52,042 bases of DNA from an uncultured Verrucomicrobiota bacterium (GTDB lineage Bacteria > Verrucomicrobiota > Verrucomicrobiia > Limisphaerales > UBA9464): the NCBI GenBank assembly GCA_903842505.1, contig CAIMMI010000005.1, forward strand, positions 1-52,042. The letters are read 5' to 3'. The notes beneath the pieces are model-generated. The model saw only the letters and a program-made list of their open reading frames with translations. It was not told where the DNA came from and searched no databases. Shown piece by piece: positions 33,839 to 40,236 of the stretch; the stretch's first letter is position 1, and each line of letters begins with the position of its first letter. A program made the translations under genes and the position numbers.

Positions 33839-33941
33839 TGGCGCGAGCCTAGGTGGGAGACCCGGGATGTCGAAGGCGGAAAATGTCCTTTGACAACCCC
33901 GGGGGCGATCAGGCATTTCTCCGTTGCTCCGGAAACGGGGC

Positions 33942-34059
33942 ACTCATCCAGAGTGGCAGAGGGACTGGCCCGATGAAGCCACGGCAACCGGCAGCGCCGA
34001 CCGCGCTGCGACCAGGTGCCAAATCCAGGTTCTCCCGATCAGGGAGGGCGAAGATGAGG
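33942..34059 (+). promoter_or_regulatory. SAM-I (S-box) riboswitch aptamer
   Basis: The stretch carries the S-box core almost letter for letter: ATCCAGAGTGGCAGAGGGA, CTGGCCCGATGA, CGGCAACC and AGGTGCCAAATCC. P1 is CTCATC (33943-33948) with GATGAG (34053-34058). P3 is GCAGCG/CGCTGC (33991-34009) and P4 is CTCCC/GGGAG (34032-34046). S-boxes bind SAM and usually repress sulfur and methionine genes. It lies 130 bp ahead of the threonine-synthase-like gene on the same strand and is followed by its own terminator. Confidence 0.96.
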
Positions 34060-34081
34060 AGCGTTGGTCTGGACTTTCCGA

Positions 34082-34111
34082 CCCCTTCTCAATTCGAGGA
34101 CGGGGTTTTTT
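34082..34111 (+). terminator. Riboswitch expression-platform terminator
   Basis: CCCCTTCTC (34082-34090) pairs with GAGGACGGGG (34096-34105) around AATTC, with one bulged C and one wobble. Six T residues follow (34106-34111). Its left arm CTTCTCA (34085-34091) can instead pair with TGAGGAG (34055-34061), the 3' strand of aptamer P1. That gives an antiterminator when SAM is absent. Confidence 0.9.
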
Positions 34112-34188
34112 CGTTTCGACCCAGCGTCGGAACCCCCGCCTCCTGAAACGGGTGGAAGTGCCCTTGCCGGTATCAGGATTAGTGACGT

Positions 34189-35463
34189 ATGAGCCAGACG
34201 CAGCAGGGATTCATGAAGGCACTGAAGTGCCGCGAGTGCGGCCGGGAATACGCCCTCGGCGCGACCCACGTTTGTGAGTTCGATTTCGGGCCGCTGGAGG
34301 TCGCCTACGACTACGATCGGATCAAGAGCGTCCTGACCCGCGCCGTGATCCAGTCGCGGCCGCAGACGATGTGGCGTTACCGGGAGCTCCTGCCGGTCGC
34401 CGGCGAACCGACGGTGGGCCGACAGGTGGGTTACACGCCGCTCATCAAGGCGGATCGCCTCGCGCGCCGCCTCGGCATCCGGGAGCTCTGGGTCAAGAAC
34501 GACGCCGTGAATTATCCGACCCTCTCCTTCAAGGATCGGGTCGTCAGCGTCGCGTTGAGTCGATCCGTGGAACTCGGCTTCAAGACGGTCGCCTGTGCCT
34601 CCACGGGCAATCTCGCGAACTCCGTAGCCGCCAATGCTGCCGCCGCGGGGCTCGAGGCCTACGTTTTCATTCCTCAGGACCTGGAGCAGGGCAAGGTCGT
34701 CAACTCACTCGTCTACGGCGCGAACGTGATTGGCATCAAGGGGCATTACGACGAGGTCAACCGCCTCTGCGCGGAGATCGCCGGCAAGTATCCATGGGCG
34801 TTCGTGAACGTGAACATGCGCCCCTACTATGCCGAAGGATCGAAGAGCATGGGCTTCGAAATCCAGGAACAGTTGGGCTGGCGCATCCCCGAACACACGG
34901 TGATCTGCATGGCCTCGGGTTCGCTCCTGACCAAGATCCACAAGAGCTATCAGGAGTTCTCCAAGCTCGGGCTCGTGTCCCAGGTTCCCTGGAAGATCCA
35001 CGGTGCCCAAGCCACGGGGTGCAATCCGATCTCCTCCGCCCAGAAGGCCGGCCTCGATTTCTTCAAGCCACAGAAGCCGAATACCATCGCCAAGTCGCTC
35101 GCCATCGGCACCCCCGCGGACGGCTTCTACGCCTTGCGCGTCATGAAGGAAACCGGTGGGGCTTCCGAGGACGTCACGGACGATGAGATTCGGGAAGGCA
35201 TCCGGTTGCTGGCCGAATGCGAGGGCGTCTTCGCCGAGACTGCCGGTGGCGTCACCGTCGGGGTCGCCAAGAAGCTGATCGCCCAAGGCAAGATTGCCGC
35301 CGATTCCAGTGCAGTGCTGTGCATCACCGGCAACGGGTTGAAGACGCTGGATGCCGTCGTTGGGCACGTGGGTGAAACCCGCGATATCCGACCCAGCCTG
35401 CGGGAATTCGAGGGGCTTCTGGCCCAGGAACGGGGTGGCGTCGCCGTCGCCGCCGGGCGATGA
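34189..35463 (+). CDS. thrC: Threonine synthase-family PLP enzyme under SAM riboswitch control
   Basis: 424 aa. An N-terminal zinc-ribbon-like start (C14, C17 and C29 in CRECGREYALGATHVC) precedes the fold-type II PLP domain, with K115 in TLSFKDR and the phosphate loop ASTGNLANSVAA. Later come SGSLLTKIHKSYQEF and the C-terminal TAGGVTVGVAKKL and CITGNGLKT. Threonine synthase acts on O-phosphohomoserine. From memory the sequence matches the cyanobacterial-type ThrC. The SAM-I riboswitch upstream and the sulfur carrier 37 bp downstream are unusual for a pure threonine gene. They raise the alternative that it makes homocysteine from the same substrate. Starts at 34189 or 34213. Confidence 0.85.
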   Translation: MSQTQQGFMKALKCRECGREYALGATHVCEFDFGPLEVAYDYDRIKSVLTRAVIQSRPQTMWRYRELLPVAGEPTVGRQVGYTPLIKADRLARRLGIRELWVKNDAVNYPTLSFKDRVVSVALSRSVELGFKTVACASTGNLANSVAANAAAAGLEAYVFIPQDLEQGKVVNSLVYGANVIGIKGHYDEVNRLCAEIAGKYPWAFVNVNMRPYYAEGSKSMGFEIQEQLGWRIPEHTVICMASGSLLTKIHKSYQEFSKLGLVSQVPWKIHGAQATGCNPISSAQKAGLDFFKPQKPNTIAKSLAIGTPADGFYALRVMKETGGASEDVTDDEIREGIRLLAECEGVFAETAGGVTVGVAKKLIAQGKIAADSSAVLCITGNGLKTLDAVVGHVGETRDIRPSLREFEGLLAQERGGVAVAAGR

Positions 35464-35500
35464 GTCCAGTGCCCTTCCGAAGCTCCGGCTGTTTGGTCCC

Positions 35501-35776
35501 ATGAGCGTACGAGTCAGCATCCCTCCCACCTTGCGCAAACTGTGCGGCGGTGAGGAGCACGTCCGGGTCCGGCCCGGCACGGTCTCGGACCTGATGGCCC
35601 AGCTTCAGCAGCGCTACAATGGGGTCCGCGACCGGCTCTGTGACGATCAGGGCCGGATCCGCGGGTCGGTGCTGGTTTTCGTGAACGACGAGGATATCCG
35701 GTTTCTCCGCCATCAGGAGACGGAGCTTCGGCCCGGCGACGAGGTGAGTATCATTCCCGCGTTTGCCGGGGGTTGA
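35501..35776 (+). CDS. MoaD/ThiS-family sulfur carrier protein
   Basis: 91 aa from the ATG at 35501, a small beta-grasp protein. It starts MSVRVSIPPTLRKLCGG, has the middle SVLVFVNDEDIRFL and the ubiquitin-like turn LRPGDEVSIIPAFAGG. It ends exactly in Gly-Gly, so no protease is needed before adenylation and thiocarboxylation. It is 37 bp after the threonine-synthase-like gene in the same SAM-regulated transcript. No moaE, thiG or activating enzyme (MoeB/ThiF) is near, which argues against a dedicated molybdopterin or thiamin role. CysO of actinobacteria and HcyS of Wolinella are known carriers of this type serving amino-acid synthesis. Confidence 0.88.
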   Translation: MSVRVSIPPTLRKLCGGEEHVRVRPGTVSDLMAQLQQRYNGVRDRLCDDQGRIRGSVLVFVNDEDIRFLRHQETELRPGDEVSIIPAFAGG

Positions 35777-36176: not shown

Positions 36177-39100
36177 ATGTCCATTCACGTCGCCCTCCAC
36201 CACCGCACGCTCTACACCTACGACCGTCTTGTCGGTCACTCGCCGCATGTCGTCCGCCTGCGTCCGGCGCCCCATAGTCGCACTGCGATCCTGGCCTACT
36301 CCCTGAACATCCGGCCCGAAGAGCATTTCCTGAACTGGCAGCAGGATCCTTTTTCGAACTACCTCGCGCGGGTGGTCTTTCCGGGGAAGTCGAAAGAGTT
36401 GCTCGTGGAGGTCGACCTCGTGGCCGAGATGGCGGTCTATAATCCGTTCGACTTCTTTCTGGAAGACAGTGCTTCCGAGGCTCCGTTTGTTTACGACCCC
36501 ATCCTGAAAAAGGACCTCGCCCCGTTCCTCGTCTGGCCGGGCGCCGGCCCGAGGTTGCTGGCGCTGATCGACCGTTGGCGTTCGACGCGGATGCGCACGA
36601 TGGACTTCCTGGTGGCGGTCAACCGGTGCGTGAACGAAGAGGTCAAGTACCTCATTCGGCTCGAACCTGGCGTCCAGACCCCCGAGGAGACCCTCACGCT
36701 CAAGAGTGGTTCCTGCCGGGATTCGGCGTGGCTCCTGGTGCAGTTGCTCCGGGCACTCGGGTTCGCCGCCCGGTTCGTCTCCGGTTACCTCATCCAACTG
36801 AAGGCGGACGTGAAGTCCCTCGACGGCCCGAGCGGCAGTTCCGTTGACTTCACCGACCTCCACGCCTGGTGCGAAGTATACCTCCCTGGAGCAGGCTGGA
36901 TTGGCCTCGATCCGACGTCCGGGCTCCTCGCGGGCGAGGGGCACATCCCGCTTTCCTGCACGCCGGAACCTGCCAGCGCGGCGCCGGTTTCAGGTGCAGT
37001 CGACAAGTGCGAGTCGAAGTTGATCCATGAGATGTCGGTGACCCGCATCTTTGAATCGCCCCGCGTCACCAAGCCCTACACCGATGAGCAGTGGGAGCGG
37101 ATCGAGGTGTTGGGTCACCGGATCGACGACGAATTGGAGAAAGGCGATGTCCGGCTGACGATGGGCGGCGAGCCCACGTTCGTCTCGATCGACGACATGG
37201 AGGGCGCTGAGTGGAACACGGCAGCCGTGGGGCCCACCAAGCGAGGACTGTCCGGGGACCTCATCAAGCGGCTTCGTGCGAAGTTCGCTCCGGGCGGACT
37301 GCTTTTCTACGGGCAGGGGAAGTGGTATCCGGGCGAGTCCCTTCCGCGATGGGCTCTGGGCTGTTATTGGCGGAAGGACGGAGAACCCCTTTGGCACGAC
37401 GATTCCTTGATCGCGGACGAGCGACGGGATCTGGGCCATTCGGCGGTCGATGCCGAGCGTTTTGCCAAACGCTTCGCCGAGAACGCCGCCGTCGGGAACC
37501 GCTGGCTGATGCCCGGCTATGAGGATCTGTACTACTACCTGTGGCGAGAACGTCGCCTGCCGGTGAATGTGGATCCGCTCAAGTCGAACCTCGACGAACC
37601 CGAGGAGCGCGCGCGGATGACCCGGATCTTCACGCAGGGCCTCAAGAAGGTCATTGGCTTCGTCCTGCCCATCCGTCGCGGAGACTCCGGTTGGGAGAGT
37701 GGTCCGTGGTTCCTTCGGGATGATACCCTTTGGTTGATCCCCGGCGATTCCCCGATGGGCTATCGCCTGCCGCTGGATTCCCAGCCTTGGGTGGCGAAGG
37801 GCGACTATCCCTATGTTCACGCCATGGATCCGATGCAGCCCCGCTCCGGATTGCCGGGCAGTCGGGTGCCGATCCGGATGCTGCGACCCGGCGAAACCCT
37901 GACCGATCTCGCAGGACGGGAAGCTGCCGCCGCGGCCCGGGTGAAGGCGGGTCCTTCCGTCGTTGGAGCAGGACCCGGGGCCGCGAATTCTGCAGATCGG
38001 TTGCCCGGCCGTCAGGAATCTGCTTCATGGATTGTGCGGACCGCGATGTGTTTCGAACCGCGGGACGGTCGGATCCATGTGTTTTTCCCGCCGGTCGAAG
38101 AACTGGAGCACTACCTCGAACTCACGGCGCTCGTCGAGCAGACGGCCACGGACCTCGGAATTCCGGTGATCCTGGAGGGATCCCCGCCGCCGTTCGATCC
38201 CCGCCTCCATGTCCTCAAGGTGACGCCGGATCCCGGCGTGATCGAGGTGAACCTCCAACCCGCGCATTCCTGGAAGGAACTCGTCCACAATACCCAGACC
38301 GTCTACGACGAGGCGCACCTCTGTCGTCTGGGTACGGAGAAGTTCATGATCGATGGCCGCCATACCGGAACGGGCGGCGGCAACCACATCATCATCGGCG
38401 GCGCCACGCCCTCCGATTCACCGGTGCTCCGGCGGCCCGACCTGCTTCGGAGCCTGCTGGCCTACTGGCACAACCATCCGTCGCTCAGCTACCTGTTCAG
38501 CGGCCTGTTCATCGGGCCGACGAGCCAGCATCCGCGGGTGGATGAAGCGCGCAATGACGCCCTCTACGAACTGGAGTTGGCCTTCAAGCAGGTGCCTGAA
38601 AAGGGTTGGGTTGCCCCTTGGTTGGTCGATCGCCTGTTCCGCAACCTGCTGGTCGACGTCTCCGGCAATACCCATCGCGCGGAGTTCAGTATCGACAAAC
38701 TCTACTCCCCGGACAGTTCCACCGGGCGGTTGGGACTGGTGGAGATGCGCGGTTTCGAAATGCCCCCGCATGCCCGGATGAGCCTCGCGCAGCACCTGCT
38801 GTTGCGCTCGTTGGTCGCCCGGTTCTGGAAGCAGCCCTACACCCAGGATCTGGTCCGATGGGATACGTCGCTCCACGACCGGTTCCTGCTTCCCCACTTC
38901 GTCTGGGATGACCTGGCCGATGTGGTCGAGGACATGCAGGGGCACGGTTATCCGCTGGAGAGCGGATGGTTCACACCGCACTTCGAGTTCCGGTTCCCGT
39001 ACATCGGGGAATTCGTCCAACGCGGTGTGAAGGTCGAACTCCGGACAGCCCTGGAACCGTGGCACGTCCTGGGTGAGGAAGGGGCTTCCGGTGGTGCTGT

Positions 39101-39530
39101 CCGATACGTCGACAGTTCGCTTGAACGCGTCCAGGCAAAGGTTTCGGGACTCGTCGATGGACGTCACGTCCTCGCCTGTGCGGGGCGGCGGGTGCCGCTC
39201 CACCCGACCGGCGTGAAGGGCGAGTACGTCGCTGGCGTGCGCTTCCGGGCGTGGCAACCGGCTTCGTGCTTGCACCCGACGATCGGCGTGCATGCTCCGC
39301 TGACGTTCGATCTGGTGGACACCTGGAATTCACGCAGCCTTGGTGGCTGCACATACCACGTGGCGCACCCGGGCGGATTGAGTTACTCGACTTTCCCCGT
39401 GAACGCCTACGAGGCCGAAAGCCGGCGCCTGTCCCGTTTCTTCGCGCATGGGCATACGCCGGGCCGGTTGGCTCCGCCTCCGCTCGAGCCGAACGCCGAG
39501 TTCCCGTTGACGTTGGACCTGCGTCGCTGA
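36177..39530 (+). CDS. Transglutaminase-like protein fused to DUF2126 domain
   Basis: 1117 aa, long and complete. The N-terminal bacterial transglutaminase domain (1-85, SIHVALHHRTLYTYDR) is followed by a transglutaminase/protease-like core. Its triad is C180 (SGSCRDSAW), H229 (DLHAWCEVYLP) and D245 (GLDPTSG). From about 320 the DUF2126 part runs to the end, with GDVRLTMGGEPTFVSIDDM, HTGTGGGNHIIIGGATPSDS and LFIGPTSQHPRVDEARND. No signal peptide is seen. Related genes often sit with ATP-grasp and alpha-E (DUF403) proteins in peptide-modification clusters. Those partners are absent here. The substrate is unknown. Confidence 0.92.
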   Translation: MSIHVALHHRTLYTYDRLVGHSPHVVRLRPAPHSRTAILAYSLNIRPEEHFLNWQQDPFSNYLARVVFPGKSKELLVEVDLVAEMAVYNPFDFFLEDSASEAPFVYDPILKKDLAPFLVWPGAGPRLLALIDRWRSTRMRTMDFLVAVNRCVNEEVKYLIRLEPGVQTPEETLTLKSGSCRDSAWLLVQLLRALGFAARFVSGYLIQLKADVKSLDGPSGSSVDFTDLHAWCEVYLPGAGWIGLDPTSGLLAGEGHIPLSCTPEPASAAPVSGAVDKCESKLIHEMSVTRIFESPRVTKPYTDEQWERIEVLGHRIDDELEKGDVRLTMGGEPTFVSIDDMEGAEWNTAAVGPTKRGLSGDLIKRLRAKFAPGGLLFYGQGKWYPGESLPRWALGCYWRKDGEPLWHDDSLIADERRDLGHSAVDAERFAKRFAENAAVGNRWLMPGYEDLYYYLWRERRLPVNVDPLKSNLDEPEERARMTRIFTQGLKKVIGFVLPIRRGDSGWESGPWFLRDDTLWLIPGDSPMGYRLPLDSQPWVAKGDYPYVHAMDPMQPRSGLPGSRVPIRMLRPGETLTDLAGREAAAAARVKAGPSVVGAGPGAANSADRLPGRQESASWIVRTAMCFEPRDGRIHVFFPPVEELEHYLELTALVEQTATDLGIPVILEGSPPPFDPRLHVLKVTPDPGVIEVNLQPAHSWKELVHNTQTVYDEAHLCRLGTEKFMIDGRHTGTGGGNHIIIGGATPSDSPVLRRPDLLRSLLAYWHNHPSLSYLFSGLFIGPTSQHPRVDEARNDALYELELAFKQVPEKGWVAPWLVDRLFRNLLVDVSGNTHRAEFSIDKLYSPDSSTGRLGLVEMRGFEMPPHARMSLAQHLLLRSLVARFWKQPYTQDLVRWDTSLHDRFLLPHFVWDDLADVVEDMQGHGYPLESGWFTPHFEFRFPYIGEFVQRGVKVELRTALEPWHVLGEEGASGGAVRYVDSSLERVQAKVSGLVDGRHVLACAGRRVPLHPTGVKGEYVAGVRFRAWQPASCLHPTIGVHAPLTFDLVDTWNSRSLGGCTYHVAHPGGLSYSTFPVNAYEAESRRLSRFFAHGHTPGRLAPPPLEPNAEFPLTLDLRR

Positions 39531-39819
39531 CCGGGGCAGGGGCTCACGCAATCCGGGCGGGAAGGGGCGACGGGCTCCATCCCGGCCTCGGCATTGGGGG
39601 GCAGCCCGCTGGCACATCTTGACACTGCCCCAAAAGCGGTTGGGCGAGACTCCGTCGAGTCGCTTCAAAGATCGACGCTTTCAGGGACAAGATTGAAGCA
39701 GGCAAAAATCGGCTCGTGAGGACACTCGCCCCACCGTTCGGCACGGGGGGGATCCGCCCGCTGTCTGCCCGGCTGCACTTGCCCCTTTTCATGCTCGGAG
39801 GATGCGGCATGCTTTGCCC
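39531..39819. repeat. Intergenic region with a CGAGACTCCGTCGAG repeat copy
   Basis: GGGCGAGACTCCGTCGAG at 39642-39659 is the reverse complement of a motif present twice at 48506-48549. GACTC/GAGTC (39647-39660) forms a small hairpin here. Nothing else between the transglutaminase and rhodanese genes is recognisable. Confidence 0.7.
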
Positions 39820-40236
39820 ATGCGATTCCTGCGTCTGGGTTGGTGGATGGGCCTCGTCTTGCTGGGGATGTCGGTGGTCCGTGCGGATGACAGTGGGGTG
39901 CGTGCGGACAGCAAGCCGGCGTTCCAGAGCATCACGGTAAAGGAATTCGAGAAGCTGCGTGCTGGAACCAACGTCGTGATCCTCGACGTCCGCACCGAGA
40001 AGGAGTTCAAGGAAGGCCACATTCCGGGCGCGGTGCTCCTCGATGTGAACTCTGCGGGTTTCGACAAGGAGGCGGGCAAGCTCGACCGTTCGAAGGTTTA
40101 TCTCGTGCACTGCGCGGCGGGCGTTCGGAGCCTGAAAGCCTGCAACAGCATGCGGGGGCTTGAATTCACGAACCTTTATAACCTCCGCGGTGGGTACAAG
40201 GGCTGGGTTGCTGATGGCAACCAAGGCGTGAAGTAG
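39820..40236 (+). CDS. Periplasmic rhodanese-like sulfurtransferase
   Basis: 138 aa. A signal peptide (MRFLRLGWWMGLVLLGMSVVRA) precedes one rhodanese domain. It has ITVKEFEKL, the structural motif ILDVRTEKEFKEGHIPGA and the active-site loop C98-AAGVRS, closed by LRGGYKGW. The catalytic Cys is kept, so sulfur transfer from thiosulfate or persulfide is possible. The start at 39820 is favoured for the leader. An ATG at 39802 directly abuts a GGAGG and would add six residues. It is probably monocistronic, with a short hairpin after the stop. Confidence 0.88.
   Translation: MRFLRLGWWMGLVLLGMSVVRADDSGVRADSKPAFQSITVKEFEKLRAGTNVVILDVRTEKEFKEGHIPGAVLLDVNSAGFDKEAGKLDRSKVYLVHCAAGVRSLKACNSMRGLEFTNLYNLRGGYKGWVADGNQGVK

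Follow-up and report, generated by a model that had tools for sequence, protein, structure and literature searches.

A SAM riboswitch, a threonine synthase-like enzyme and a sulfur carrier: a probable homocysteine synthase of the MetM/MetO type in Verrucomicrobiota

Small sulfur carrier proteins appear in several routes to sulfur-containing amino acids. In Wolinella, HcyS and HcyF are said to make homocysteine from a thiocarboxylated carrier, with an enzyme of the MetY family (PF01053), and MetO, the carrier of a Streptomyces system, reportedly works as a thiocarboxylate. Its partner, MetM, is a homocysteine synthase acting on O-phosphohomoserine (Hasebe et al., 2024, cited in PMC12172450). 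In Streptomyces albulus, a riboswitch for S-adenosylmethionine (SAM) lies upstream of metM, and the neighbouring metO belongs to the sulfur carrier family (PMC12172450). In the mycobacterial CysM/CysO/MoeZ route, CysM is fed by a thiocarboxylated carrier (PMC3227635), while the NIL domain, which we shall meet below, is also present in the DUF39/NIL-ferredoxin route to homocysteine of Desulfovibrio and methanogens (PMC5764234). We describe here a locus to be compared with these systems: a SAM-I riboswitch, then thrC2, coding for a relative of threonine synthase, then the gene of a sulfur carrier. It lies in a stretch of 52,042 nucleotides (the window) from an uncultured Verrucomicrobiota bacterium, contig C5 (CAIMMI010000005.1) of a 5.2-Mb draft genome (G000) with a completeness of 95.6%.

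This locus very probably specifies a MetM/MetO-type homocysteine synthase, made of ThrC2 and its carrier and controlled by the SAM riboswitch. ThrC2, derived from threonine synthase, would eliminate the phosphate of O-phosphohomoserine; where threonine synthase adds water at C-beta, ThrC2 would add sulfur at C-gamma, giving homocysteine. The 91-residue carrier would deliver the sulfur on its C-terminal glycine, in the form of a thiocarboxylate. It would itself presumably be charged by a ThiF-rhodanese (MoeZ-like) protein, and the riboswitch would end transcription when SAM is plentiful. The canonical threonine synthase of the organism (ThrC) would make threonine from the same O-phosphohomoserine, so that ThrC2 and ThrC would share a branch point. 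A first-pass annotation, made from the sequence alone, had already proposed that sulfur held by the carrier replaces the phosphate of O-phosphohomoserine. This is now supported by the second thrC of the genome, by the finding of no metB, metC, metY, metZ or metX there, by the presence of an activator, by the recurrence of the unit and by the precedent of MetM. This kind of enzyme has been known since 2024; what is new is its spread through a phylum, its replacement of PF01053 enzymes and its possible NIL partner. Among the literature titles listed, from a search mostly confined to papers outside subscription, none ties the unit to Verrucomicrobia.

The features of the locus are collected in Table 1. 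Riboswitch and genes share one direction, with 37 bp between thrC2 and the carrier gene, as the first-pass annotation had it; its S-box aptamer, its pyridoxal 5′-phosphate (PLP) enzyme with TLSFKDR and its small MoaD/ThiS protein ending in two glycines were all found again. The aptamer exceeds the gathering score of its covariance model (44.4 bits); in the genome search, where scoring covered 150 of 505 first-look candidates, it is the sole RF00162 match. The terminator said to follow it fared less simply: folding of the RNA predicts a hairpin of 11 pairs, interrupted by a one-base bulge, at 34080–34107 and running into T34106–34111, while a simple terminator scan of the locus found none and the folding energy of the hairpin is unremarkable. 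GAGGAG, at the end of P1, could pair with CUUCUC in the terminator arm, which would make the usual antiterminator layout of a switch that SAM turns off. For the carrier, the mechanical list of open reading frames (ORFs) has an upstream start giving 141 residues; the frame of 91 residues is used here.

Table 1. The riboswitch–thrC2–carrier locus, in positions of the window.
Feature	Position	Strand	Evidence
SAM-I (S-box) riboswitch aptamer	33941..34060	+	Rfam RF00162, 78.5 bits, full length; fold z −2.99
GAGGAG, P1 end, putative antiterminator half	34056..34061	+	complementarity to 34085–34090, by eye
Intrinsic-terminator-like hairpin and run of six T	34080..34111	+	RNA fold, z −1.21
thrC2 (metM-like), PLP enzyme, threonine synthase fold, 424 aa	34189..35463	+	profile and tree
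thiS/metO-like sulfur carrier, 91 aa, C-terminus AFAGG	35501..35776	+	PF02597 (ThiS), 55.6 bits

Family models label ThrC2 a 'threonine synthase', a name that is probably wrong wherever this enzyme bears it. The label is understandable. The protein scores 271.5 bits on TIGR00260 (thrC), above the cut-off of 167.1, and carries the SFKDR motif of the PLP lysine; on PRK08197 it reaches 280.3, under the threshold of 303. For its AlphaFold model, with a mean predicted local distance difference test (pLDDT) of 84.8, the best fold matches are mostly threonine synthases at Z 34–40 (2c2b at the top, with Z 40.2, 377 residues aligned and a root-mean-square deviation of 2.4). A cysteate synthase (9k3c, Z 35.7) is also among the top five matches, and the fold search is uninformative on substrate. 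Score and fold would suit the milder alternative of the first-pass annotation, in which the enzyme is simply a second threonine synthase: SAM would switch it off and so set how O-phosphohomoserine is divided between threonine and methionine, with a carrier serving some other process. We consider this improbable. The signature residues of canonical ThrC are replaced in ThrC2 by other, constant ones. STGNTSA, NS(I/V)NPVRIEGQK and VGNAGNI, the motifs of the 13 canonical proteins compared, are absent as such, their counterparts being STGNLAN, NVNMRPYYAEGSK and MASGSLL. Leu142, Asn209, Arg211, Tyr214 and Ser245 are invariant in 97 of 97 ThrC2 proteins, whereas Thr, Ser, Asn, Arg and the GNAGN loop stand at these positions in the canonical proteins shown. 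In Thermus ThrC, the residues Thr88, Ser155, Arg160 and Asn188, which we take to contact the phosphate of the substrate, correspond to Leu142, Asn209, Tyr214 and the changed loop of ThrC2, a replacement consistent with an altered reaction. In the tree, ThrC2 forms a clade of its own with 100/100 support, apart from 13 further ThrC-like proteins and from the 13 canonical ThrC. Neither the tree nor the 97-protein count includes L197, which duplicates the window locus.

An actinomycete locus can stand in for that of S. albulus. Nonomuraea gerenzanensis has the only actinomycete homologue of this type that could be reached, S. albulus MetM itself being compared by description. The Nonomuraea locus shows the same order of riboswitch (68.7 bits), enzyme (490 bits with the ThrC2 profile) and carrier (96 bits); the enzyme is 56% identical to ThrC2 over 403 positions and agrees with it at 22 of 23 residues checked.

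The rest of the genome was searched for what a homocysteine synthase of this kind would replace, and for what it would require. A separate canonical thrC exists (G000:C51, 319 bits), which disposes of ThrC2 as the only threonine synthase of the organism. PF01053, the family that covers MetB, MetC, MetY and MetZ, has no match in this genome at E ≤ 1e-25, only weak partial ones of at most 26.9 bits, and MetX, MetA and DUF39 (PF01837) have none, so that these routes were rejected by profile searches. The first-pass annotation had asked for just such a survey: a canonical thrC copy and a ThiF/MoeB-type activator are present, and a complete metX/metY route was not found. Were ThrC2 a second threonine synthase, none of the routes searched would remain to supply homocysteine.

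The phylum at large tells a similar story. Among 387 genomes, with at most four candidates per genome scored for ThrC2 and for PF01053, the ThrC2 profile makes a clean split, 17 genomes standing at 648–923 bits and all other matches at 265 or below. The 17 span 10 families, and 16 of them are without PF01053, against 13 of the 370 genomes without ThrC2 (Fisher p 1.3e-19, not a strict probability since the genomes are related). Within family f24 the swap is visible as such: G298 has PF01053 and no ThrC2, G351 and G387 ThrC2 and no PF01053. This near mutual exclusion is hard to explain with a second threonine synthase, as is another ThrC-type match in 16 of the 17 genomes. Over 30 ThrC2 genomes, neither MetA nor DUF39 was found (0/30 each), and MetX exceeds 120 bits in one only (G006), with weak matches in G009 and G275. 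MetX had to be judged by score, since none of 47 genomes, controls included, reached the TIGR01392 cut-off of 500 bits, true-looking MetX proteins scoring 348–473. A full DUF39/HcyBio gene was seen in G226 (G226:C62:3211–4284; L259), a genome with MetX, without PF01053 and without ThrC2.

The unit itself is strongly conserved. In a sample of 19 genomes, our own and its relatives, ThrC2 is present in 14, though in G003 and G010 contig ends truncate it. A riboswitch precedes thrC2 at all 14 loci and the carrier gene directly 3′ at 13, the last one (G010) stopping at a contig end. A scan of named contigs gave at least 549 related stretches. The 80 best of these (the named loci) were examined, with a riboswitch model built from the 14 loci just mentioned. 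At least seven of the 80 come from the same relatives (L117, L118, L119, L120, L124, L129 and L161), so that the two sets are not independent. The riboswitch is present at 77 named loci (missing at L148, a contig start, and at L171 and L189) and at 12 of 16 further loci of the phylum; the carrier lies within 250 bp of thrC2 at 67 of the 80 and at 17 of 17 phylum loci. The order for which the first-pass annotation had wished a check thus recurs, and a carrier conserved beside ThrC2 is another argument against a mere second threonine synthase. An exact GG end is found in 61 of the 67 carriers; the other six comprise three weak or broken frames, two genes cut by contig ends and one ending in AGGR. 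At the remaining named loci, the carrier is found at 251–1000 bp (six) or farther (three), is absent despite room (three) or is cut by a contig end (one). These 80 loci, the best of at least 549, also give a measure of how far the misnaming may reach. Beyond the unit, a rough comparison of the ORFs around thrC2 at 16 loci gave nothing common to more than two of them, a weak negative since the comparison also missed the NIL gene discussed below. In plasmid and phage collections, identity stays at or below 37.4% among the 40 matches listed of 113 in the plasmid collection, Nonomuraea aside, and at or below 39.3% in nine of nine matches to phage records; no annotated carrier gene adjoins the Haladaptatus and Chlorohelix plasmid loci. 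Several metagenome genomes titled Akkermansia muciniphila (L118, L127, L130 and others) carry the unit, with an enzyme 80–91% identical to that of the window; the label on these genomes looks wrong.

The nearest solved structures of the carrier are 4n6e_B and, second, 3dwg_C, which we take to be CysO. This proximity, and the fact that CysM too is fed by a thiocarboxylated carrier, might suggest that ThrC2 and its partner make cysteine from O-phosphoserine in the manner of mycobacterial CysM/CysO. We hold this to be very improbable: ThrC2 belongs to the ThrC family and was rejected as a CysM-type enzyme (38 bits on TIGR01138, cut-off 394.2), the genome has a separate CysK, and both the SAM riboswitch and the absence of PF01053 point to methionine. 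In the homocysteine synthase that we favour, the sulfur would reach the carrier through the MoeZ-type ThiF-rhodanese protein encoded elsewhere in the genome (G000:C347). ThiF exceeds 250 bits in 29 of the 30 ThrC2 genomes (G340 is the exception), with a C-terminal rhodanese domain in all four proteins whose domains were checked. In G139 (L264:5896–7335), a carrier of the same subfamily as that of the window is fused to ThiF-rhodanese, a direct hint at what may charge the carrier; its GG would be internal there, and cleavage might be needed. Around ThiF, at 12 loci with crude ORF calls, nothing beyond ThiF itself and overlapping frames is common to more than three. Carriers vary in other ways. 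Also in G139, the one adjoining thrC2 (L207/L273) ends in AIAGG followed by a seven-residue tail, ITEKFQI, and may thus need a protease before use. A tandem pair of carriers stands behind thrC2 at L097, L101, L122, L123, L126, L128, L139 and L161, L101 and L161 being one and the same contig.

A number of observations weigh against the assignment of ThrC2 as a homocysteine synthase. The replaced phosphate-contact positions, if they fit a changed reaction, also weaken the case for O-phosphohomoserine as the substrate. A Microcystis relative of MetM acted in vitro as threonine synthase and deaminase (PMC12172450), which would suit a second threonine synthase as well. Nonomuraea joins the ThrC2 clade at 100/100, but on a long branch that drew a warning from the tree program. 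ThiF is unspecific: all 17 comparison genomes have a match as well, and so it permits the mechanism without being proof of it. The search for alternative routes in this genome covered PF01053, MetX, MetA and DUF39, and the phylum counts of ThrC2 and PF01053 come from no more than four candidates per genome. A PF01053 protein is kept in three of the 30 ThrC2 genomes (G006, G010 and G275). Conversely, 13 genomes of the phylum have neither ThrC2 nor PF01053, and the four of them that were listed all have MetX, one (G226) with DUF39 besides; among the relatives, the assemblies of G004, G013, G014 and G015 likewise lack both. G004 and G013 have the pair of carrier and NIL genes to which we now turn, but in G013 the contig breaks off just where one might look for thrC2.

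In the transporter MetN, the NIL domain binds methionine. A gene for a NIL protein of about 94 residues (PF09383, 48.3 bits in the one protein scanned) stands by the carrier at 56 of the 80 named loci, 11 of 17 phylum loci and four of 12 loci of the relatives. In the genome under study it is found elsewhere, after a second carrier paralogue 57% identical to the first (G000:C206:24646–25325; L114 6647–7326), on a contig that stops 12 bases upstream of the pair. Eight relatives have this pair too, and in other clades it lies within the thrC2 operon. An HU-like gene follows in eight of nine loci compared and a HisS-like gene in five (names given by eye). No riboswitch was found by the separate pair, no NIL gene at the Nonomuraea locus, and no match to the NIL protein in the plasmid collection. 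It is a tentative idea, which we would rather doubt than assert, that the MetM/MetO system of Verrucomicrobiota has in the NIL protein a further dedicated partner, sensing methionine and gating sulfur delivery or else helping in sulfur transfer, and that the system is the main methionine route in much of the Limisphaerales of the phylum, in Methylacidiphilum and in their relatives. If so, this would be a variant with post-translational control besides the riboswitch.

Two organisms make the matter concrete. The methanol dehydrogenase of G060 is identical at 577 of 577 residues to PDB 4mae, which we take to be that of Methylacidiphilum fumariolicum SolV; the genome joins the NIL gene to riboswitch, thrC2 and carrier at one locus (L210) and is without PF01053. 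A metabolic model of M. fumariolicum records that genomic evidence for L-homocysteine production was not found, and in 2024 this model needed added orphan reactions for homocysteine (PMC12341988). The ThrC2 unit is a concrete candidate for filling this published gap. Xiphinematobacter (G054), with a chromosome of 915,884 bases, keeps thrC2 and carrier at a locus (L208) that has neither riboswitch nor NIL gene; it has been described as retaining most steps for essential amino acids, methionine excepted (PMC4607532). That description, and a search of routes confined to PF01053, MetX, MetA and DUF39, would agree with the view that these organisms are methionine auxotrophs, in which the unit has some other role regulated by SAM. 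It is the least probable of the explanations that we weighed. M. fumariolicum, a carrier of ThrC2, has been cultured with methane in ammonium mineral salts medium (PMC12341988), and enzyme and carrier are retained in a Xiphinematobacter genome of 0.916 Mb. Should ThrC2 and its partner indeed make homocysteine, this would explain how many Verrucomicrobia without the textbook methionine genes could make methionine, and species that standard annotation would list as unable to make it may be prototrophs.

The genes that follow the unit in the window deserve a brief mention. At 36177–39530 a protein of 1117 residues fuses a putative amidoligase (DUF2126) to transglutaminase domains; L104 and L106 have after the unit a large ORF of similar length, these two ORFs being alike each other. 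Further on, 39802–40236 encodes a small rhodanese protein. It was rejected as the sulfur donor, since its N-terminus is hydrophobic and signal-like (judged by eye), so that the protein is probably exported.

It remains to place the locus among the systems with which we began. With threonine synthase, ThrC2 shares fold, SFKDR and family score; it differs by its separate clade, its altered active-site motifs and the carrier and riboswitch attached to it. With HcyS/HcyF of Wolinella, which the first-pass annotation had invoked, it would share the making of homocysteine from a thiocarboxylated carrier. The comparison fits less well, the enzyme there being reportedly of the MetY family (PF01053), which was not found in the genome of the window. 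The DUF39 route also associates a NIL-domain protein with homocysteine synthesis, the NIL protein being here a stand-alone one, but no ThrC2 genome has a PF01837 match (0/30). Closer is the CysM/CysO/MoeZ route, with the same kind of carrier, a MoeZ-type activator, a PLP enzyme and a phosphorylated amino acid as acceptor (PMC3227635), whereas the enzyme is of another family and the predicted product of ThrC2 is homocysteine. Closest is MetM/MetO of S. albulus, as described in PMC12172450: a ThrC-like enzyme, here distinct from the canonical ThrC of the genome, an adjacent carrier gene, here with a product ending in GG, and a SAM riboswitch upstream. In view of this precedent, and of the order and clade shared with Nonomuraea, the locus described here is most fittingly classed with the MetM/MetO type, from which it differs by belonging to another phylum and by the NIL gene that accompanies the carrier at 56 of the 80 named loci.

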